Positions 22,373 to 32,534 of a stretch of DNA of 64,000 bases are shown piece by piece (within the stretch, counting starts at the first letter, position 1; every line of letters begins with the position of its first letter). The notes beneath the pieces are model-generated. The model was not told the DNA's origin and did not search any database. It saw nothing but the letters and a program-made list of their open reading frames with translations. The DNA lies in contig NZ_RWIU01000007.1 of the NCBI RefSeq assembly GCF_003944765.1, forward strand, positions 62,001 to 126,000, in the 5' to 3' direction. Made by a program: the position numbers and the translations under genes. The stretch is from Hymenobacter perfusus (GTDB taxonomy: Bacteria; Bacteroidota; Bacteroidia; Cytophagales; Hymenobacteraceae).

Positions 22373-24403
22373 GTGGTTTCTTTTTACGTTAAGCAGATAA
22401 TTGCGCCGGGCCTGGTTACCGGTTTATTGTTGGCAGGAACTGCCCGCGCGCAGGACGCACCCCTGAAATTTGGTAAGCTGGAGGCTAAAGAAGCCGCTAC
22501 CCTGCTGGCTGTGCCCACGGCTGATTCGGCTGCCGCCGAGGTCCTCTGCGACTTTGGGCAGTCCAGCATCCAGGGCAAAAACGAAGGCTTTGAGCTGAAG
22601 TTTGAGCGTACGGCCCGGCTGCTTATCCGCCGCCGGGCCGGCTACGATAACGCCACGGTACGTGTGCTGCTGTACCACGACCCCAAGGGCGGCGGCCGGG
22701 AAGAGCTGCTACAGCTGAAAGGCCTGACGTACAACCTGACGGGTGCTACGCTCAGCAAAGAGCCACTGCGCACCGAGGCCGTGTTCAGCCGCAAAGTGGA
22801 TGACCGCCTGGATGAGTATGCCTTTACGCTGCCCAACGTGCGCGAGGGTTCCATTGTGGAGTTCACCTACGTAATTAAGTCGCCGTTTCTGTTCAACCTC
22901 CAGGACTGGCAGTTTCAGCGGGATATACCCGTGCGCTGGAGCGAGTACCGCACGACTATTCCCAGCTTTTACCGCTATAAGGAGCTAACGCGCACGTACT
23001 GGCCCTTCGCCCTCAACGAAACCGGAGCCAAAGCGTACGCCACCACCTACCGCGAGGACACCCGCACTTCCTACGGCTCCATCCCGACGGGCAGCGGCAA
23101 CAGCTACACCATTACCACCCAGGCCCTCACGCGCCGCTGGGTCCAGAAAAACCTGCCCGCTTTCCACCCCGAGTCGTTCATGACCACGGAGCGCGACTAC
23201 CTGAGCCGGGTTGATTTTGAACTGGAGCGCATTCAGTTCGATGAAAAACGCCCGCCGCAGTTCATCGTGGGGAGTTGGGAGGAAATTGAAAAAGAGCTGC
23301 TGGAAAAAGAAAGTTTCGGGCAGTACCTGCGCGCCACCACCGCCCTGAGCACCGCCGCCGCGCCCCTGCGCACCCTCTCCAACCAGGTAGAACGGGCCGC
23401 AGCCGTCCGGCAGTTGGTGCTGGCGGCCGTGGGCTACAGTGGTGCGCCCGGCACCCACACCCGGAACCCGGCCAAAAAAGTGGTGGAACTGCGCAAGGGC
23501 AACGCGGCCGAGGTGAACCTGCTGCTGGTAGCCGCTTTACGCGCCGCCGGCCTCAACGCCCAGCCGCTGTTGCTGAGCACCCGCGCCCACGGCCGCATTC
23601 AGACGGAGCTGCCCGTGGTCAGTCAGTTTAACTACGTAGTGGCCCACGTGGCCCTGCCTGGCGGTCAGGAGCTACTCTTGGATGCCACCGACGCCAGCCT
23701 GCCGCCCACCCTACTCCCCGACTACTGCCTGAACGGCCAGGGCCGGCTGCTGGGGCCGGCGGGCAAGTGGGTGAACCTGACCGAAAACGCTCCCCATCTG
23801 CTCTACACCAACGCCCGGCTAACGGTAACCGCTCAGGGCGAAATCCAGGGCAGCATCCGCCAGGAATATGCTGGCTACGCCGCCTCCGACTACCGGGTGC
23901 CGCTGCCGGCCCTGCGCCAGCAGTGGCAGCAAGCCCACCCCGACTGGCAGATCAGCCAAGCCGAAACCGCCGCCCCCGACGTGGCCAAGCCCGTGACCCT
24001 GGAACTGAAGGCCAGTCTGCCCGGCGCGGAAGCAGCGGCGGCCACGCTGTATCTGCGGCCGTTGCAGCAGCTGTTCGTACCGGCCAGCCCATTTAAGCAG
24101 GCCGAGCGGCTGTATCCGGTTGATCTGGCCACTACCCGGCGGCTGGAGTGCGTGGCAACGCTGACGCTGCCCCCTGGTTACGCCGCTACCGAGTTGCCGG
24201 CTAATATGCAGTTGGTTTTGCCTGATAGTGGCGGGCGTTTTCTGTTTAATATCAGCCAGCCCACCCCGCAGACCATTGCGCTGCAAAGCCGCCTGCAGTT
24301 GGCAAAAGCACACTATTCGGCAGAGGAGTACCATGCCCTGCGGGAGCTCTATACCAAGGCCCTTGCCAAGCTGGCCGAACCGATTGTGTTGCAGCGGCAA
24401 TAA
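22373..24403 (+). CDS. DUF3857/transglutaminase-fold protein, catalytic residues lost
   Basis: A 676-residue exported protein. After a signal peptide (ending near TARAQ) comes a DUF3857 domain (residues about 30-330; SEYRTTIPSFY) and a transglutaminase-like core. At the nucleophile position, where active members have GDC, it reads GNAAEVN (A378 replaces Cys), and the His position has Tyr (FNYVVAHV), so it is probably not an active transglutaminase. Start is GTG 22373, which begins the signal peptide. It is closely related to the next gene, suggesting tandem duplication. Role unknown, possibly a scaffold or binding protein in the periplasm. Confidence 0.85.
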   Translation: MVSFYVKQIIAPGLVTGLLLAGTARAQDAPLKFGKLEAKEAATLLAVPTADSAAAEVLCDFGQSSIQGKNEGFELKFERTARLLIRRRAGYDNATVRVLLYHDPKGGGREELLQLKGLTYNLTGATLSKEPLRTEAVFSRKVDDRLDEYAFTLPNVREGSIVEFTYVIKSPFLFNLQDWQFQRDIPVRWSEYRTTIPSFYRYKELTRTYWPFALNETGAKAYATTYREDTRTSYGSIPTGSGNSYTITTQALTRRWVQKNLPAFHPESFMTTERDYLSRVDFELERIQFDEKRPPQFIVGSWEEIEKELLEKESFGQYLRATTALSTAAAPLRTLSNQVERAAAVRQLVLAAVGYSGAPGTHTRNPAKKVVELRKGNAAEVNLLLVAALRAAGLNAQPLLLSTRAHGRIQTELPVVSQFNYVVAHVALPGGQELLLDATDASLPPTLLPDYCLNGQGRLLGPAGKWVNLTENAPHLLYTNARLTVTAQGEIQGSIRQEYAGYAASDYRVPLPALRQQWQQAHPDWQISQAETAAPDVAKPVTLELKASLPGAEAAAATLYLRPLQQLFVPASPFKQAERLYPVDLATTRRLECVATLTLPPGYAATELPANMQLVLPDSGGRFLFNISQPTPQTIALQSRLQLAKAHYSAEEYHALRELYTKALAKLAEPIVLQRQ

Positions 24404-24569
24404 GTTGCGCAGCGAGGGTTGTACAGGAGCCGGATAAACAGGATATTTCGGTTCCGCTGCTCCGTCCGTACTTCTCTACACCTATTTGTAGTGCTTTGTT
24501 GCCTGCTCTGCTGCCGGAGCCGGGAATAGTATTCTCCCCTGATATTTCCATCTTCTACCCCTTGCTGGT

Positions 24570-26609
24570 ATGATTTCACCTTTACTCCGCCGGCTGCTAC
24601 TGGCTGGCGTCTGCGGCGGCGCGTCAGTGTCATTGGCCCACGCCCAGGCCGACCCCATCAAATTCGGCAAGATTAACGAGCTGGACCTTACCGCCCAGAA
24701 CTTCGCGGCCGATAGTGCCGCCTCGGCCGTGGTGCTGTGCGACTTTGGCCGCTCCCGCTTCGAGTACAACGACGGGCAGTTCCGGGTGGTATTTGAGCGC
24801 GTGACCCGCATCAAAATCTTGAAAAAATCGGGGTACGATGAGGCCACCGTGCAGGTGCCGCTGTACCACAAAGCCACCAACGAAGAGAAGCTCACCAGTC
24901 TGCGGGGCTTCACCTACAATCTGGTGAATGGCCAAGTGGTGAAGGAGAAGCTGAATTCCGACGCTATTTTCCGGGAGGAAAGTACTCCTAACATCACCAT
25001 CCGCAAGTTCACCATGCCCAACGTGCGGGTAGGATCAGTGATAGAATACTCTTACTTGGTCGTGTCGCCTTTCACCTTCAACTTTCAGGACTGGACGTTC
25101 CAGCGCGAAATTCCGGTGCGCTGGAGCGAGTACCGGGCGGCTATTCCGGAGTATTTCGACTACAAAATGCTCATGCAGGGCTATGAGCCACTGGAAGTGC
25201 AGGAGCGCAACGAAGCAACTACCCAGTACACCATCAGCTGGTCGTCGAAAATGGAATACGGGGAGCGTACCTCCGGCGGCTCGACGGTGGTGACCCCACG
25301 CGTGACCAACCACCGCTGGGCCATGAAAGCGGTGCCCGCCATGCGCGAGGAGCCCTACATGACCACCACCAACGACTACATTTCCAAAATTGACTTTGAG
25401 CTGGCCGGCATTAAGTGGCCCGATGAGCCCTACAAAGCCGTAGCTAACTCCTGGGAGAAAATTGACACCGAACTGCTCAATGATGAGCAATTTGGCAGCC
25501 AGCTCAACAAGGGCGGTTTCCTGAAAGAGCAGCTGACGCCGCTGCTGGCCCAGACCACCGACCCGGCGGCCCGCGTAGCCGCCATTCATGACCTGGTGCG
25601 CCGCAGCGTGAAGCACAACGGCAACAACGCCGTGTATGCCTCCAGCACCGTGCACCGGGCCTACGACCAGAAAACCGGCAATGCGGCCGACATCAACCTG
25701 TTGCTGGTGGCGGCCCTGCGCCAAGCCGGCTTCCAGGCCAACCCCGTGCTGCTGAGCACCCGCAACCACGGCCGCATGGAAACCGGCGTGCCGCTGCTCT
25801 CGCGCTTCAACTACGTGCTGGCCCACGTAGCTTTGCCCGAAGGGAAGGAGATGCTGCTGGATGCCACCGAGGAGCTGGCTCCCTGCGGCATGCTGCCGCA
25901 CCGCTGCCTTAACGGCGTGGGCCGGCTGGTGCTGCCCAAAACCGGGGCCTCGCGCTGGATTGAGCTTAAAACCAACGACCGGCTGCTTTCCTACCGCCAG
26001 ATCAGCCTGACGGTGGATGAAAAAGGTGGCTTCAGCGGGAAAGTCCACCAGGAGCATGCCGGCTATCTGGCCCTGAGTCAGCGGGAAAAGCTGCGCAAGC
26101 TGGGGGAAAAGAAGTACGTGGAAGAGCTGGCCGCCAGCCATGAGGGCTGGAATATTCCTGCCTATACCTTTAAGGAGCGCGACGCGCTGCACCGGCCGCT
26201 CACGCTGGAATATGAGTTTGCCAGCGCCGGGGGCGATGCACCCGCCGGCACTATTTACCTGAACCCGCTGCGCGACTTCGGTGCCGATAAAAACCCTTTC
26301 CTGCACGAAGGCCGCCGCTTCCCGGTGGACTTCGGGACGGCGCTGGACGAAATCGTTATGGTGAACATCACGCTGCCGGCCGGCTACGAGCTGGAGGAAA
26401 CGCCCAAGCCCATGACCATGGAGCTGCCGGAAAGCGGGGGCCGCTTCACCTATGCCATCCAGCCGGGCACCGGCATCATCCAGATTGTGAGCCGCATGAA
26501 CCTGAGCCGGCCAGTATACTCAGCGGAGGAATACGCGTACCTGCGCGAATTCTTTGCCCGCATGATGGCCAAGCAGAGTGAGCGACTGGTCCTCAAAAAG
26601 AAGGTATAA
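24570..26609 (+). CDS. DUF3857/transglutaminase-fold protein, catalytic residues lost (paralogue 2)
   Basis: 679 residues, with the same domain order as the preceding gene: signal peptide (MISPLLRRLLLAGVCGG...AHAQ), DUF3857 domain and transglutaminase fold. It shares long blocks with gene 1 (PVRWSEYR, NLLLVAALR, a LLSTR-HGR stretch). The nucleophile position is again Ala (GNAADIN, A372) and the His position Tyr (FNYVLAHV). It ends 5 bp before the third member, so these two are likely co-transcribed; the gap to the first is 166 bp and may hold its own promoter. Function unknown. Confidence 0.85.
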   Translation: MISPLLRRLLLAGVCGGASVSLAHAQADPIKFGKINELDLTAQNFAADSAASAVVLCDFGRSRFEYNDGQFRVVFERVTRIKILKKSGYDEATVQVPLYHKATNEEKLTSLRGFTYNLVNGQVVKEKLNSDAIFREESTPNITIRKFTMPNVRVGSVIEYSYLVVSPFTFNFQDWTFQREIPVRWSEYRAAIPEYFDYKMLMQGYEPLEVQERNEATTQYTISWSSKMEYGERTSGGSTVVTPRVTNHRWAMKAVPAMREEPYMTTTNDYISKIDFELAGIKWPDEPYKAVANSWEKIDTELLNDEQFGSQLNKGGFLKEQLTPLLAQTTDPAARVAAIHDLVRRSVKHNGNNAVYASSTVHRAYDQKTGNAADINLLLVAALRQAGFQANPVLLSTRNHGRMETGVPLLSRFNYVLAHVALPEGKEMLLDATEELAPCGMLPHRCLNGVGRLVLPKTGASRWIELKTNDRLLSYRQISLTVDEKGGFSGKVHQEHAGYLALSQREKLRKLGEKKYVEELAASHEGWNIPAYTFKERDALHRPLTLEYEFASAGGDAPAGTIYLNPLRDFGADKNPFLHEGRRFPVDFGTALDEIVMVNITLPAGYELEETPKPMTMELPESGGRFTYAIQPGTGIIQIVSRMNLSRPVYSAEEYAYLREFFARMMAKQSERLVLKKKV

Positions 26610-26614
26610 CGGCT

Positions 26615-28570
26615 ATGCGCAATCTGTTTTTTACGCTGACTACCGGCTGGGTAGCGGCTACGGTAGCCGCTCCGGCCTATGCGGCCCCCGGCCCGGCCCC
26701 CAAATATGCCGTAGCCGATTTATCGGCGGCCCTGCGGGAAAATGCCCACGCCGTGGTGCGCCATCAGGAAGAAACCCTGCTGGTGAAGTCGGTGGGGCGC
26801 ACGGTGGAAACCACACGCCGCGCCGTAACGATTCTGGATGAGGCCGGGTCGCGCTGGGCCTCGGAGCTGGTATACTATAGCCAGCTCAACAGCATCAGCT
26901 ACTTCCGGGGCGCGGTGTATGATGCCACCGGCCGGCAGCTGCGCCAGCTGCGGGCCCAGGATATTCGTGATATCAGCTTGTCCGATGGTTTCAGCCTGGC
27001 CTCCGATGCCCGGGGCCGGGTAGCCGACCTCAGCCAGCCCACCTACCCCTACACGGTGGAGTTTGAGTACGAAGTGGTGTCCGACAACCCGCTGTTTTAC
27101 TCTACCTGGCGGCCCCAGCCGATGGAGCAGCTTAGTGTAGAACAGGCTTCTTTTAAGGTATTGATGCCCGCCGGACTGGCGCTGCGCTACCAGGAAGCAC
27201 GCCTGCCGGCCGGCACTGCGCAGGCCAAACACACCCAGGGCAGCCAGGAAATCTATGAGTGGCAGGTGCATGATCTGGCCGCCCGGGAGGAAGAAGCCGA
27301 TGCCCCGCCGGTAGCTGAGCTGACGCCCGCCGTATTCACCGCGCCGGCCGAGTTTGAGGTGCAGGGCCACGCCGGCCGCCTCAGCACCTGGGCCGACCTG
27401 AGCCGCTGGACCTACGAGCTGAATGCCGGCCGCGACGAGCTACCGCCGGCCCTCAAAGCGGGCATGGTTGCCCTGGTCCAGGGCGAAACCGACGAGCGGG
27501 CCCGCATCCGGAAAGTATATCAGTTTTTGCAGGCCAATACCCGCTACATCTCGGTGCAGCTGGGCCTGGGCGGCTGGCAGACGTTCCCGGCCTCCTCGGT
27601 GGCGGCCAACGGCTACGGCGACTGCAAGGCTCTGACCAACTACTGCAAGGCCCTGCTGGGGGCCGCTGGCATTCAGGCCTATGCCGCCCTGGTACGCGCC
27701 GGCTCCGACGAGCAGGATATCCGCACTGATTTTCCCAGTTCCCAGTTCAACCACGTAGTGCTGTGCGTGCCGCTCACGAAGGCGGCCAGGCCGGATACCG
27801 TGTGGCTGGAATGCACCAGCCAGACCAACCCGTTTGGCTACATGGGCGGTTTTACGGGCAACCGCCACGCGCTGCTGCTGCTGCCCGAAGGTGGCAAGCT
27901 CATTCCCACGCCCCGCTACGGTGCCGCTGAAAACCGCCGGGAGCGGCTGGCCGATGTAGTTCTGGATGCCAACGGCAACGCCACGGCCACGTTGCGCACC
28001 CTGCGCACCGGGTTGGAATACGATGCCGTATCCGGCGTGGCGGGGCTGGAGCTGGCCGAGCAGAAAAAGTATATCGGCAACCGGCTGGCGCTGGCCAACT
28101 TCACCCTGAACAAAGTGTCGTTCCGGCATTCGGCACCCGGCGCGGCTGTGCCGGGCCTCACCGAGAACCTGACGCTCACGCTACCCGGCCTGGCCCCGCC
28201 CAGCGGCAAACGGGTATTTCTGGCGCCAAACCTGCTTAGCCGGCTGCCCGCACCGCAGGCAACCGTAGGGGAGCGGCAGGGCGAGCTATGGCTGGATCAT
28301 GCCCTCACCCAACTGGATACGGTACAGCTGCACCTGCCCGCCAGCCTGCGCCCCGAGCAGTTGCCGGCCCCGGTGCAGCTCAGCACCCGGTTCGGTACCT
28401 ATTCCAGCCAGCTCCAGACCCTGCCCGATGGCACCATCCGCTACATCCGCCGCCTGGAGCTGCCCCGCACCCGCTTTGCCCGCACCGATTACCCGGCGTA
28501 TCTGGAATTCAGGCGGAAGATTAGTGCCGCCGATAAGGCCCAGATCGTACTACTGAAAACCGACGCCTAA
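26615..28570 (+). CDS. DUF3857/transglutaminase protein with Cys and His retained
   Basis: 651 residues: signal peptide (MRNLFFTLTTGWVAA...AYAA), DUF3857 domain and a transglutaminase-like core that, unlike its two neighbours, keeps the Cys (GDCKALTNYCK, C337) and the His (FNHVVLC, H380), with an acidic residue, E399, in the third position (WLECTSQTNPFG). It could therefore be a cysteine amidase, protease or transglutaminase in the periplasm. It starts 5 bp after the second paralogue, implying one transcript. A terminator-like hairpin follows at 28658-28685. The substrate is unknown. Confidence 0.85.
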   Translation: MRNLFFTLTTGWVAATVAAPAYAAPGPAPKYAVADLSAALRENAHAVVRHQEETLLVKSVGRTVETTRRAVTILDEAGSRWASELVYYSQLNSISYFRGAVYDATGRQLRQLRAQDIRDISLSDGFSLASDARGRVADLSQPTYPYTVEFEYEVVSDNPLFYSTWRPQPMEQLSVEQASFKVLMPAGLALRYQEARLPAGTAQAKHTQGSQEIYEWQVHDLAAREEEADAPPVAELTPAVFTAPAEFEVQGHAGRLSTWADLSRWTYELNAGRDELPPALKAGMVALVQGETDERARIRKVYQFLQANTRYISVQLGLGGWQTFPASSVAANGYGDCKALTNYCKALLGAAGIQAYAALVRAGSDEQDIRTDFPSSQFNHVVLCVPLTKAARPDTVWLECTSQTNPFGYMGGFTGNRHALLLLPEGGKLIPTPRYGAAENRRERLADVVLDANGNATATLRTLRTGLEYDAVSGVAGLELAEQKKYIGNRLALANFTLNKVSFRHSAPGAAVPGLTENLTLTLPGLAPPSGKRVFLAPNLLSRLPAPQATVGERQGELWLDHALTQLDTVQLHLPASLRPEQLPAPVQLSTRFGTYSSQLQTLPDGTIRYIRRLELPRTRFARTDYPAYLEFRRKISAADKAQIVLLKTDA

Positions 28571-28943
28571 GTCCTGAACGCTTTACCGAGCGTCTAGGAC
28601 AAGTTCCGGGCATGCTGTTTTCCCGGATATTTATTTCACCTGGCTGCCTTACGGCAAAAACCCACTGCCAAGAGGCAGTGGGTTTCTTATTTTCAGATAC
28701 GCTGGGTTTTTAATATAAAAACGTGTCTATATATACCTTTTACAACTTGACTATAATACCAATAAACACCTGACTAAATTATTCAAAAGGCTTATTTGCA
28801 AGCAAATCATTGCCAGTTGAGCAAAATATATCTATAAAAAACAGCCGCTTCCGCAGGCAAAAATTCTAACTTGAGGCGCTCTATTCCTGCCTCTCCGCAC
28901 CTATCTTCCTTTCTTGCTTTTCTCCTTTTCATTCTTCTACCAT
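28571..28943. other. Intergenic region (373 bp) with terminator and AT-rich upstream segment
   Basis: No gene is visible. After the terminator at 28658-28685 the base composition falls sharply to an AT-rich stretch (about 28700-28860) with a TTTGC-AA-GCAAA dyad near 28797, likely the promoter and control region of the protease gene. Confidence 0.55.
28658..28685 (+). terminator. Intrinsic terminator after the DUF3857 cluster
   Basis: Perfect 12-bp arms (28658-28669 and 28674-28685) with a 4-nt loop and a T-run at the end. Confidence 0.75.
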
Positions 28944-31900
28944 ATGCTTGAAACCTCTACTTTGTTCCGTCGGGCCTGGCGGCCGCTGCTGGCTGGCGGC
29001 GCGCTGATAGCCGGCCTCGGGACGGCTACCAGCGCATCGGCCCAGCGGGTATTGTGGGCCGATGCACCTCAGGTGCCCACGGCCGCCCGGCAGGCAACCC
29101 AGCCCTTATCCCATTTCCGCGCGGTTAATTTCCAGCTGGATGCCGTGCGGGCTGCTCTCCGCACCGCTCCGTTGGAGCGCGGAGCCGGGGCCAAAGGCTC
29201 AGCAACGGTAATTTCCCTGCCGATGCCCGATGGTACTTCGCAACGCTTCCGGGTGGTGCAGGTGCCGGTAATGGCTCCGCAATTGGCGGCCAAGTACCCA
29301 AACATCCGTACTTACGCGGCGCAGGGCATTGATGACCCCTCGGCCTCGGCCCGCCTCGATGTGAGTCCGGATGGCTTCCACGCCATGATTCTGGCGGCCA
29401 ACTCCACGGTATATATTGACCCGGCTACGCGGGGCCTCGATACTCACCTGGTGTTTGAGCGCCGCTCCATGAACCGGGGCGCCTTTCCGTTCGTGTGCGC
29501 CACTCCCTCCCCCGATGGTACCGAAGAACTGCCCCAGGTAACGGCGGCCCAACGCGCCGCCGTAGCCAACGGCACCACATTGCGTACGTACCGGCTGGCC
29601 CTGGCCTGCACCGGCGAGTACAGCACCTTCCATGGCGGCACCAAAGCGGGCGCAATGGCCGGCATGGTGGCTTCGGTAAACCGGGTAAGCGGTATATATG
29701 AGAAGGAGCTGGCCGTACGGCTGGTCATCGTCCCCAAAAATGACACCCTGATTTTCCTGGATGCCGACACCGACCCCTACACTAACAGCAGTGGCTCGGC
29801 AATGCTCAACCAGAACCAGACCACTGTTACGGATCGGATTGGGGCCGCTAACTACGATATCGGTCACGTATTCAGCACCGGTGGCGGCGGCGTTGCCCAG
29901 AAGCCTTCCGTGTGCATTGCCTCAGGTAAGGCCCGTGGCGTAACCGGTTCCCCGGCCCCCGTCAACGATGCCTTCGATGTAGACTATGTCGCCCACGAAA
30001 TGGGCCATCAGTTTGGGGCCGACCATACCTTCAACAGCCAGACCGGCAGCTGCGGCGGCGGCAACCGCGCGGCTACCTCGGCCTACGAGCCGGGCTCGGG
30101 TACTACCATCATGGCTTATGCCGGTATCTGCGGAGCCGACGACATTCAGCCTAACTCCGACCCATATTTCCATTCGCGCAGCTTCGACCAGATTGTAGCC
30201 CACATCACCGGGCTGGGCAACTGCTCGGTGAATACGGCCACCGGCAACACGCCGCCCGTAGTGAATGCCGGCCGCAACTACGCTATTCCGGTCAGCACGC
30301 CCTTTGTACTGACGGGTTCGGCTACGGATGCCAATTCCGACGCCCTGACTTACTCCTGGGAGCAATACAACCTGGGTGCGGCCGGAGCGCCGGCTGCCGC
30401 TACCGGCGACGCGCCGCTGTTCCGGGCCTTTTCGCCCACTACCAGCCCTTCGCGCACGTTTCCCCGGTTATCGGACATCCTCAACAATAGCACTACCAAA
30501 GGGGAGCTATTGCCTACCTACGGACGGCGGCTGGTGTTCCGGCTCGTAACCCGCGACAACCGCGTAGGCGGGGGTGGCGTGGACTACGACTCCATGAATG
30601 TGGTGGTCGTTTCCACGGCTGGCCCCTTTGTCGTGACGGCTCCCAACACGGCTACTACCTGGCTGGTGGGCGCTCCGCAGCAGGTGAACTGGGACGTGGC
30701 CAACACCACCCAGGCCCCCATCAGCGCGGCCAATGTGGATATTCTGCTTTCCACCGATGGCGGCCTGACCTACCCCACCACCCTGCTTGCCAACACGCCC
30801 AACGACGGGTGCGAAGCCGTAACGGTACCGGCCAGCGTCGGCAGCTCCACGCAGGCCCGCATCCGGGTGCAGGCCACGGGCAGCATCTTCTTCGACGTAT
30901 CAAACCAGAACTTTACCCTGGAAACACCCGCCGGCCCTACGTTCTTCCTGCAAGGCCCGGGCTGCGCAGCCACTGCGCTGGCATTCTGCCCCGGAGCTTC
31001 CGGCACACGGGCTATAACAGTGGGCCAGCTACAGAACTTTACCGGTGCTGTTACCCTCTCGGCCACTAACCTGCCAGCGGGTATCACGGTTACGTATACC
31101 AACCCTACCGTGCAGGCCGGCTCCGGCACCACGGCCACCATCAGCGCGGCCAGCACCACGGCCGCCGGCACGTATACCATCCGCCTTACCGGCACCAGCG
31201 GCGGCGTAACGCGCCTCCTGGATGTGACCGTGACGGTGCAGCCTTCGGCTACGCAGGCCGCAACCATCAGCGCGCCCAGCGCCAACGGCATCACTACGCT
31301 ACGCCCCCGCGTCACCTGGAGCACGGTGCCAAATGCCACGGCCTACGAGGTACAGATTGCTACGAACGCAGCCTTTACTACCGGTGTTCAGACCCAAACC
31401 AACATCACCGGCACCAGCTTCACGCCGCTGACGGCGCTGCAGCCCGGCACCGTGTACTTCGTGCGGGTACGCGGCCTGAGCCCTTGCGGCACGGCACCGT
31501 ATTCGGCAGTTACGCAGTTTACGACCGGTATTCAGGCTTGCCAGAACATTGTGGCAACCAACGTACCGCGTACTATCCCAACCGGCTCCGCGGCATCGGT
31601 AACGTCCGTTATCAACGTTACGAACACTGAGCGGGTGTCGGATATTCGCATCCGGGGCCTGGCCATTACCCATCCGGACGTAAGCGAGCTGGAAATTTCG
31701 CTCACGAATCCGGCGGGTCGGCGGGTGGTGCTGTTCTCGCGGGCCTGCCCCGGCACGGCCAACCTGAACCTGACGTTTGACGACGCGGCCACCGCTGCGC
31801 TGGCCTGCCCATTGACCAGCGGGGCGACCGTACGCCCGGCCAATTCCCTCGGCGACCTGCTCAACGACCCGGCCAATGGCAACTGGACGCTGACCATTTC

Positions 31901-32534
31901 GGATAACACGGCGGCCAATGGCGGTACTCTCACCGGCTGGACACTGGAGCTGTGCACCGTAGGTGAAATTCCGGCGGCTCCCGGCTCCCTCACGACTCTG
32001 GCCCCCACCGTTACCGCTACGGCCGCCACCATCGACATGATCTGGCTGGATAACTCGGGGAACGAAACCGGCTTTGAGATTGAGCGCGCCCGTACCGGCA
32101 CTGCGGCTTTTGCCCGGATTGCCACCGTACCGGCCAATACCACTTTCTACACCGACCAAGTAACCGCCAACGGCCCGTATTGCTACCGCGTGCGGGCAGT
32201 AAACGCTACCGGCGCTTCGGGTTACACCAATGAAAGCTGCCAGACGGTGGCCGGGGTGACGGCTACGCATAACGCCGCGCTGCTGCAGGGCATTGAAGTA
32301 TCGCCGAACCCTAGCACCGGTGTTTTCAATGTAAAAGTGGATAACACCCAGCGTGGGGCCATTACGTTGCGCGTTACCGATGCAGTTGGCCGTCAGGTAC
32401 TAAGCCAGACGCTGACGAAAAGCAGCACCGCCCTGCAACTGCCGCTCGATTTGAGCGCGCTACGCACCGGCGTGTACAACCTGCACTTCGATATGCCCAA
32501 CGGCTCGACGGTAGTACGTCTGCTGAAACAGTAG
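28944..32534 (+). CDS. T9SS-secreted reprolysin-like zinc metalloprotease
   Basis: 1,196 residues. A signal peptide is followed by a propeptide, then a metzincin catalytic domain with HEMGHQFGADH (residues 351-361, the three zinc His and catalytic Glu) and a Met-turn-like MAYAGIC. After it come a PKD-like domain (PVVNAGRNYAIPV), Ig-like and FN3 modules, a proprotein-convertase P domain (NVTNTERVSDIRIRG ... NWTLTISDN), another FN3, and a C-terminal T9SS sorting domain (about 1120-1196, EVSPNPSTGVFNVKV ending in VVRLLKQ). It should therefore be exported by type IX secretion. I use ATG 28944; a TTG at 28914 adds ten unlikely residues. Likely degrades external protein. Confidence 0.9.
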   Translation: MLETSTLFRRAWRPLLAGGALIAGLGTATSASAQRVLWADAPQVPTAARQATQPLSHFRAVNFQLDAVRAALRTAPLERGAGAKGSATVISLPMPDGTSQRFRVVQVPVMAPQLAAKYPNIRTYAAQGIDDPSASARLDVSPDGFHAMILAANSTVYIDPATRGLDTHLVFERRSMNRGAFPFVCATPSPDGTEELPQVTAAQRAAVANGTTLRTYRLALACTGEYSTFHGGTKAGAMAGMVASVNRVSGIYEKELAVRLVIVPKNDTLIFLDADTDPYTNSSGSAMLNQNQTTVTDRIGAANYDIGHVFSTGGGGVAQKPSVCIASGKARGVTGSPAPVNDAFDVDYVAHEMGHQFGADHTFNSQTGSCGGGNRAATSAYEPGSGTTIMAYAGICGADDIQPNSDPYFHSRSFDQIVAHITGLGNCSVNTATGNTPPVVNAGRNYAIPVSTPFVLTGSATDANSDALTYSWEQYNLGAAGAPAAATGDAPLFRAFSPTTSPSRTFPRLSDILNNSTTKGELLPTYGRRLVFRLVTRDNRVGGGGVDYDSMNVVVVSTAGPFVVTAPNTATTWLVGAPQQVNWDVANTTQAPISAANVDILLSTDGGLTYPTTLLANTPNDGCEAVTVPASVGSSTQARIRVQATGSIFFDVSNQNFTLETPAGPTFFLQGPGCAATALAFCPGASGTRAITVGQLQNFTGAVTLSATNLPAGITVTYTNPTVQAGSGTTATISAASTTAAGTYTIRLTGTSGGVTRLLDVTVTVQPSATQAATISAPSANGITTLRPRVTWSTVPNATAYEVQIATNAAFTTGVQTQTNITGTSFTPLTALQPGTVYFVRVRGLSPCGTAPYSAVTQFTTGIQACQNIVATNVPRTIPTGSAASVTSVINVTNTERVSDIRIRGLAITHPDVSELEISLTNPAGRRVVLFSRACPGTANLNLTFDDAATAALACPLTSGATVRPANSLGDLLNDPANGNWTLTISDNTAANGGTLTGWTLELCTVGEIPAAPGSLTTLAPTVTATAATIDMIWLDNSGNETGFEIERARTGTAAFARIATVPANTTFYTDQVTANGPYCYRVRAVNATGASGYTNESCQTVAGVTATHNAALLQGIEVSPNPSTGVFNVKVDNTQRGAITLRVTDAVGRQVLSQTLTKSSTALQLPLDLSALRTGVYNLHFDMPNGSTVVRLLKQ

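Follow-up and report, generated by a model that had tools for sequence, protein, structure and literature searches.

Transglutaminase-fold pseudoenzyme genes are linked to a single Cys-bearing paralogue across a bacterial phylum

INTRODUCTION

Three consecutive genes of Hymenobacter perfusus, located at 22373-28570 of the 64,000-nt stretch of DNA analysed here (the window), encode proteins with a common DUF3857-transglutaminase-fold make-up. The first two have lost the catalytic Cys and His, and the third has retained them. Here we report that genes of these two kinds, referred to below as dead and live, are packed together on the same strand, that the dead genes are under purifying selection, and that each such cluster throughout the phylum typically joins them to one live gene only. 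Rather than decaying copies, the inactive proteins are probably partners with a working role.

RESULTS

Two of three tandem paralogues have lost the catalytic Cys and His

The trio consists of the following open reading frames (ORFs), with gene 3 starting 5 bases past the stop codon of gene 2.

22373..24403, + strand: gene 1 (dead copy a), a pseudoenzyme of the DUF3857-transglutaminase fold whose N-terminus is of the export type (ORF, 676 amino acids, GTG start)
24570..26609, + strand: gene 2 (dead copy b), a pseudoenzyme of the DUF3857-transglutaminase fold whose N-terminus is of the export type (ORF, 679 amino acids; Pfam matches; structure model)
26615..28570, + strand: gene 3 (live copy), a protein of the DUF3857-transglutaminase fold that retains Cys, His and Glu (ORF, 651 amino acids; DUF3857 match)

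In alignments gene 1 is 41% identical to gene 2 and 23% identical to gene 3, and the closest named relatives of gene 2 are Hymenobacter proteins with identities of up to 83%. Against the Pfam family Transglut_core (PF01841, cut-off 23 bits), genes 1 and 2 score above the cut-off (29 and 28.5 bits); gene 3 scores under it (18.6 bits, E 0.0023), and its Cys, His and acid motifs still align with those of genes 1 and 2. DUF3857 (PF12969, cut-off 24.6 bits) is matched above the cut-off by gene 2 (29.6) and gene 3 (99.6) and under it by gene 1 (17.6), and all three genes stay under the cut-off of 27 bits for DUF3858 (PF12970; 14.9, 18.4 and 15.2 for genes 1, 2 and 3). An NCBIfam scan gave no match for the trio.

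Export of the trio proteins is suggested by a crude hydropathy test, in which gene 1 has a hydrophobic N-terminus. Of the 74 dead aligned sequences (rows) of family 1, the family to which the trio belongs, 73 pass the same test for an export-type hydrophobic N-terminal stretch, as do 41 of its 42 live-type rows. The sole live row to fail is the window's gene 3, which scored 1.42 where the threshold is 1.9; its first residues nevertheless resemble a signal peptide by eye.

Alignments placed the catalytic positions as follows.

23504..23506, + strand: gene 1 A378, Cys position (GNAAEVN)
23633..23635, + strand: gene 1 Y421, His position (FNYV)
23681..23683, + strand: gene 1 D437, acidic third position, retained
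25683..25685, + strand: gene 2 A372, Cys position (GNAADIN)
25812..25814, + strand: gene 2 Y415, His position (FNYV)
25860..25862, + strand: gene 2 D431, acidic third position, retained (D in 72/74 family-1 dead rows)
27623..27625, + strand: gene 3 C337, predicted nucleophile (YGDCKAL; C in 34/34 readable Hymenobacter orthologues)
27752..27754, + strand: gene 3 H380, predicted catalytic His (FNHV; H in 34/34)
27809..27811, + strand: gene 3 E399, predicted third catalytic residue (E in 34/34 readable Hymenobacter orthologues)

A sequence-only reading of the window had claimed that the Cys is replaced by Ala (A378, A372) and the His by Tyr in genes 1 and 2, and that gene 3 keeps C337 and H380; this was confirmed residue by residue. 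It had not mentioned the acidic third position, which is present in all three genes (D437, D431, E399). The Cys-His-Asp/Glu triad is complete in gene 3 (C337, H380, E399) and reduced to the acid in genes 1 and 2. From the retained residues we infer that gene 3 would be catalytically active.

The same split recurs within the genus. Defining dead genes by the lack of a Cys would be circular, and the copies at 35 Hymenobacter loci were therefore also classed by their best BLAST match to the window genes. Among the readable copies (four more partial frames miss the key columns), those resembling genes 1 and 2 have Ala (35), Ser (32) or Val (1) at the Cys column and Tyr at the His column in 68/68, and those resembling gene 3 have both Cys and His in 34/34, with Glu in 34/34. 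This division of residues between dead and live copies exceeds chance. The gene order is dead-dead-live at 28 of the 35 loci, including L039, which is counted here though it has shortened frames. Of the exceptions, three read dead-live (L012, L017, L018) and one dead-dead-dead-live (L035); L027 has two dead genes and a live one truncated where the contig ends, and L033 and L043 have broken frames.

Dead genes accompany a single live gene throughout the phylum

One profile was made from the Hymenobacter dead proteins and another likewise from the live ones; the dead profile was run on 80 genomes of the same taxonomic family, and both were run on 148 genomes of the phylum. The dead profile matched 74 of the 80 family genomes (E ≤ 1e-5) and 50 of the 148 phylum genomes (E ≤ 1e-10). 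Beyond the 35 Hymenobacter loci we analysed 61 stretches, which were picked for dead-profile or DUF3857 matches and are not a random sample. The family supplied 20 of them, the phylum 40 and the window's own genome one; two genomes each contributed a pair of stretches.

Exactly one Cys-bearing copy together with one to four dead copies was found in 55 of these 61 stretches, 25 of the 55 having at least two dead copies, and a second live copy was found in none of the 61. The commonest pattern was dead-live (25 stretches), followed by dead-dead-live (9), live-dead-dead (6), live-dead (5), dead-dead-dead-live (5) and dead genes on both sides of the live one (5); four stretches had dead genes only and two a live gene only. 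When 151 rows were classed by whichever of the two profiles scored higher, with the Cys ignored, the class fitted the Cys column in 150 of them, the exception being a lone live-type gene (L110). Family members share one strand in each of the 61 stretches, and 83 of the 90 gaps between successive members are shorter than 270 bases; in the other seven the next member lies 2 to 12 kilobases (kb) off. Extra dead genes were seen 6 to 10 kb from a dead-live cluster, on the same strand, at L091:4921, L092:3733, L093:15486, L095:3762 and L096:3066; their His column reads Met, Val or Asn.

The 94 dead rows of the 61 stretches, among which the alignment of one divergent row (contig C7) is unsure at the catalytic columns, carry at the Cys column Ser (33), Ala (25), Val (15), Gly (8), Ile (6), Thr (3) and, once each, Leu, Pro, Gln and Glu; the His column holds Tyr in 60, His in 16 and other residues in 18, and the acid column Asp in 92. 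The third catalytic position of the 57 live rows is Glu in 51, Asp in five and a gap in one, so that live family-1 rows favour Glu there (51/57) and dead rows Asp (92/94). Six later stretches (L119-L124) each contain one live gene and one or two dead ones, whose Cys columns read V, S, S, W, Q, A and A.

The linkage was also approached from the live side. With the live profile at E ≤ 1e-60 there are 40 loci in 39 of the 148 genomes, the window's own included. In a comparison of two tables by eye, each of the 40 proved to be accompanied, on its own contig and strand, by a dead match separated from it by less than 0.8 kb. Whether the trio is conserved had been left as a question by the sequence-only reading; the dead-plus-live arrangement proves to be conserved phylum-wide.

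The dead genes are constrained and lack a conserved relocated Cys

Ratios of non-synonymous to synonymous substitution (dN/dS; NG86 method, with several dS values near or above 1) were calculated against six relatives. Gene 1 gave 0.14-0.26, gene 2 gave 0.12-0.22 and gene 3 gave 0.11-0.16, and three comparisons among the relatives gave 0.10-0.28, 0.04-0.28 and 0.06-0.25, respectively. The dead genes are under purifying selection. Conservation reaches at least 80% at 51 positions of the 74 dead rows. Among these are A432 and a dead-specific signature of N376, S396-T397-R398, G401, F413-N414, D431, N575-P576-F577 and R582.

Together with the near full-length reading frames found throughout the phylum, the dN/dS range of 0.12-0.26 for genes 1 and 2 and the 51 conserved positions contradict the idea that the dead genes are functionless duplicates in decay, which we consider scarcely credible. 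It can draw on a dN that is somewhat higher in genes 1 and 2 than in gene 3, and on a few split or shortened copies in relatives (L033, L039 and L043, the live copy being shortened too in L039).

The location of the constraint points to a changed role. With domain borders set by hand, the mean frequency of the commonest residue in the 74 dead rows is 0.42 in the transglutaminase domain against 0.38 and 0.37 in its flanks, and in 40 live rows 0.56 against 0.42 and 0.37. Because the domain is hardly distinct from its flanks in the dead rows and is distinct in the live ones, the dead proteins are probably retained for a task other than the ancestral reaction.

A relocated nucleophile in genes 1 and 2 would have undone the sequence-only reading, and no conserved relocated Cys appeared: no column has Cys in 40% or more of the 74 dead rows. 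The domain is free of Cys in 38 of these rows, and in 26 of the 74 there is none after residue 45. Two candidates were rejected. C446 of gene 2 is conserved in Hymenobacter but is Cys in only 26 of the 74 dead rows, and C57 is Cys in eight of them.

These data also bear on whether the dead proteins might still catalyse, through a relocated nucleophile or through other chemistry such as a Ser at the Cys column. The frequency of Ser at that column (33/94 dead rows, 32/68 Hymenobacter copies), the nearly invariant acid and the His kept in 16/94 are all in its favour. However, the column also accepts Ala, Val, Ile, Gly, Thr, Leu, Pro, Gln and Glu, the window copies themselves have Ala, and the His column is without His in 78/94; with the scarcity of Cys described above, this makes residual catalysis very improbable. 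In HvyA, a transglutaminase-like protein of another family, replacement of the catalytic Cys by Ser or Ala and of the His by Gln or Ala is reported to abolish function, and a screen for variants without function yielded H226Y (PMC4241560).

The dead lineages of three pair families may share one origin

The window's genome contains a second, divergent live-plus-dead DUF3857 pair on contig C7 (L045:4301-8480, - strand), formed by a live-type protein with the motif YGDCKDM followed by a dead one in which the motif is lost. The dead member of this pair retains DUF3857 and has no transglutaminase-core match at E ≤ 0.01. Pairs of this second family, live gene first, were found at L045, L125-L130 and L132-L134, and a third pair family at L136 and L138.

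A 106-row tree was built without the Cys and His columns, with support from the Shimodaira-Hasegawa-like approximate likelihood ratio test (SH-aLRT). It recovers two clades with 99% support each, one made up of the 45 family-1 dead rows and one of the 26 paired family-1 live rows; a single clade for all dead rows was not resolved in this tree. A 53-row tree was made from hand-picked rows, 24 dead and 29 live, excluding the long-branched L132 and L134 pairs. Here six dead and live groups each form one clade, and a careful search placed all 24 dead rows on one side of a branch with support of 96/95.8. The dead members of family 1 thus group with those of the two other pair families.

In approximately unbiased (AU) tests, for which the groups were named after the first tree had been seen, dead and live members of family 1 as one clade were rejected (p-AU 0.0136), and the corresponding clades for family 2 (p-AU 0.128) and family 3 (p-AU 0.113) were not. 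A single ancient loss of the Cys is favoured by these trees but not proven, long branches being present. Duplication of dead copies has also occurred locally, since the two dead copies at L085, L091 and L106 are each other's nearest rows in the 106-row tree, with starred support.

On this basis we offer a tentative history, which we think possible but more likely wrong than right. The Cys would have been lost once, before the three pair families of Bacteroidota diverged; since then each locus would have retained one exported transglutaminase-fold enzyme and, beside it, one to four dead subunits on which its activity or targeting depends. The dead genes would duplicate freely and the live one stay single.

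Gene 2 is predicted to adopt a transglutaminase fold

A structure model of gene 2 made from 24 Hymenobacter sequences has a mean predicted local distance difference test score (pLDDT) of 87.8. Its best fold match is 3kd4, spanning almost all of the protein with 482 residues between 49 and 677 (Foldseek E 1.2e-26; VIA Z 17.7, root-mean-square deviation (rmsd) 5.7). Residues 293-468 of the model superpose on transglutaminase 3 (8oxx_A) with Z 9.7 and rmsd 4.3 over 153 residues, which places this part of gene 2 in the papain-like/transglutaminase fold. The 3kd4 entry is BDI_1141 of Parabacteroides distasonis, one of the DUF3857/transglutaminase-core/DUF3858 proteins and titled 'putative protease'; it resembles gene 2 in fold, but unlike the dead-plus-live pairing the record describes a single protein. 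Sequence searches of solved structures with genes 2 and 3 singly gave no match, and profile searches were weak, the dead profile reaching 3kd4 at E 0.061 and the live profile finding none of the family.

Dead and live genes may covary and, as far as seen, travel without a conserved third partner

Protein distances among dead members correlate with those among live members (r = 0.84; 780 pairs of 40 loci), a value that shared ancestry alone could give. Seven genomes holding two pair families served as a control. Within families r was 0.90 for family 2 and 0.47 for family 1, and across families it lay between -0.24 and 0.11. For family 2 the correlation persisted after outliers were dropped (0.83, 0.88), supporting specific covariation in that family, but not clearly in family 1.

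Neighbouring ORFs were clustered at 65 loci (60 of the 61 stretches, L045 being excluded, and five of the 35 Hymenobacter loci). The search for a conserved third partner was unsuccessful: no other real family of the pair's breadth occurs among the 25 largest clusters, in a clustering that pools the two strands and is liable to overlook genes that are short or evolve fast. The cluster next in size (22 loci) resembles opposite-strand reading frames, and the rest reach at most 11 loci, mostly within related ones. As far as seen, therefore, the travelling unit consists of the dead and live genes.

Directly downstream of the trio, 28914-32534 encodes a large reprolysin-type metalloprotease with a P-domain, a fibronectin domain and a secretion-system C-terminal sorting domain (Pfam). 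Its family was found at 6 of the 65 loci, all in Hymenobacter or the same taxonomic family, and a transporter at 7 of the 65.

DISCUSSION

In summary, an exported system in which a Cys-His-acid enzyme is served by pseudoenzyme partners is the likeliest account of the arrangement, and we give this proposal an even chance. Gene 3 would work in the periplasm or extracellularly, as a protease, amidase or transamidase. Genes 1 and 2 would be its non-catalytic paralogous partners, most likely binding to it and determining how active it is or which substrate it takes, much as the trypanosome prozyme activates S-adenosylmethionine decarboxylase (AdoMetDC). Protease, amidase and transamidase activities are all possible for the transglutaminase fold. 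Catalysis by gene 3, physical contact within the trio, the direction of regulation and the substrate are what we infer here from the genomic pattern. That pattern includes a consistent linkage of the dead paralogue to a live one, as would be expected of a prozyme-like partner.

Several results weigh against this proposal. Eleven genomes had a dead-profile match and no live match at E ≤ 1e-60. The stretch was inspected in eight of them (G080, G090 and G198 lying outside that set), and in five it contains a dead gene but no live match (L112, L113, L116, L117, L118); the other three have a live-type gene only (L110, L111, L143). The dead members at L112, L117 and L118, where the stretch lacks a live gene, belong to one clade and carry Gln at the Cys column. 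Two further stretches, L115 and L098 (the latter about 1.6 kb from a contig end), carry extra dead copies without a live match, the pair being elsewhere in those genomes (L078, L097). In other subfamilies, live-type genes occur without a nearby dead one (L110, L111, L131, L135, L137, L139-L144). The structure model of gene 3 (14 sequences) is poor, with a pLDDT of 65.6, and again matches 3kd4 best; structure prediction thus yields a confident transglutaminase fold for gene 2 and, for gene 3, a domain too weak to judge. Finally, the family-1 correlation falls to 0.23 and -0.01 without outliers, and the cross-family values then reach 0.48.

The sequence-only reading stands in part. Its idea that the dead-plus-live arrangement is meaningful is well supported by phylum-wide conservation, the constraint on the dead genes and the lack of a conserved relocated Cys. 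The roles that it suggested for genes 1 and 2, regulating or scaffolding gene 3 or presenting a substrate to it, are possible ones. The lone dead genes of five genomes disfavour a strict dependence on a live neighbour. The nine loci with a live-type gene alone (L131, L135, L137, L139-L144) indicate that pairing is a property of certain subfamilies. At one of them (L139:4516-7077) the lone live-type DUF3857-transglutaminase protein has a C-terminal DUF2569 domain.

The main rival is that the dead proteins bind independently. Their old cleft would capture a ligand or substrate, such as a peptide or the end of a peptidoglycan or glycan, and the live enzyme would process the same material, giving a common pathway and no complex. 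We judge this possible, though on balance unlikely. It fits the strict residues in the transglutaminase domain of the dead clade (N376, S396-T397-R398, G401, N414, D431), the five genomes in which a dead gene persists with no live neighbour, and the multiplication of dead copies beside a single live one, as expected if ligands diversify. However, the rule of one live gene and the 40/40 linkage are more easily explained by direct dependence.

Alternatively, the dead proteins could be inhibitors or substrate traps that restrain the live enzyme or its substrates. A shared fold with a partial cleft could compete for substrate, and competitive inhibition is named as a mode of pseudoenzyme action in a review (PMC10211241). 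No observation made here separates inhibition from activation, and we regard restraint as improbable, though less so than residual catalysis.

The best-known enzyme-pseudoenzyme pairs are eukaryotic, and there are some bacterial ones. Dead paralogues are reported to activate trypanosome AdoMetDC (the prozyme; PMC5201418) and deoxyhypusine synthase (PMC3663545). Both resemble the window trio in joining a live enzyme to a dead paralogue of the same fold; they differ in being unrelated eukaryotic enzymes whose complexes are proven, whereas a complex of the trio is a proposal. The CspC:CspA proteins of Clostridioides difficile are likewise bacterial pseudoproteases with a functional role and form a heterodimer, but they are of another family and are described as sensing signals in spore germination (PMC12880746).

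Human Protein 4.2 (EPB42) and FBXO21 have, to our knowledge, no operon-like link to a live paralogue. Like genes 1 and 2, they are non-catalytic transglutaminase-fold proteins, and they are reported in other roles (PMC10318531). HvyA resembles gene 3 in being transglutaminase-like, in having a signal sequence and in needing its catalytic Cys and His for function; it differs in belonging to the BTLCP family, and the available portion of the report describes no dead partner (PMC4241560). In the literature searched, the names DUF3857 and DUF3858 or their Pfam numbers occur in one paper, which mentions a DUF3857 gene upstream of lolA in Xanthomonas.

Pseudoenzyme partners as such, and inactive transglutaminase-like proteins of eukaryotes, are already known (PMC10318531); the phylum-wide pairing appears to be new. 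No description of paired dead and live DUF3857 proteins was found in the records examined or among the papers listed by the literature searches, which comprised titles and the starts of abstracts from mostly non-subscription sources, and an earlier account is possible.

Looking forward, a bacterial case that spans a phylum and follows a simple genomic rule, one live gene with one to four dead ones, would be well suited to asking why dead paralogues persist. The pairing would also give a first functional handle on DUF3857 proteins.

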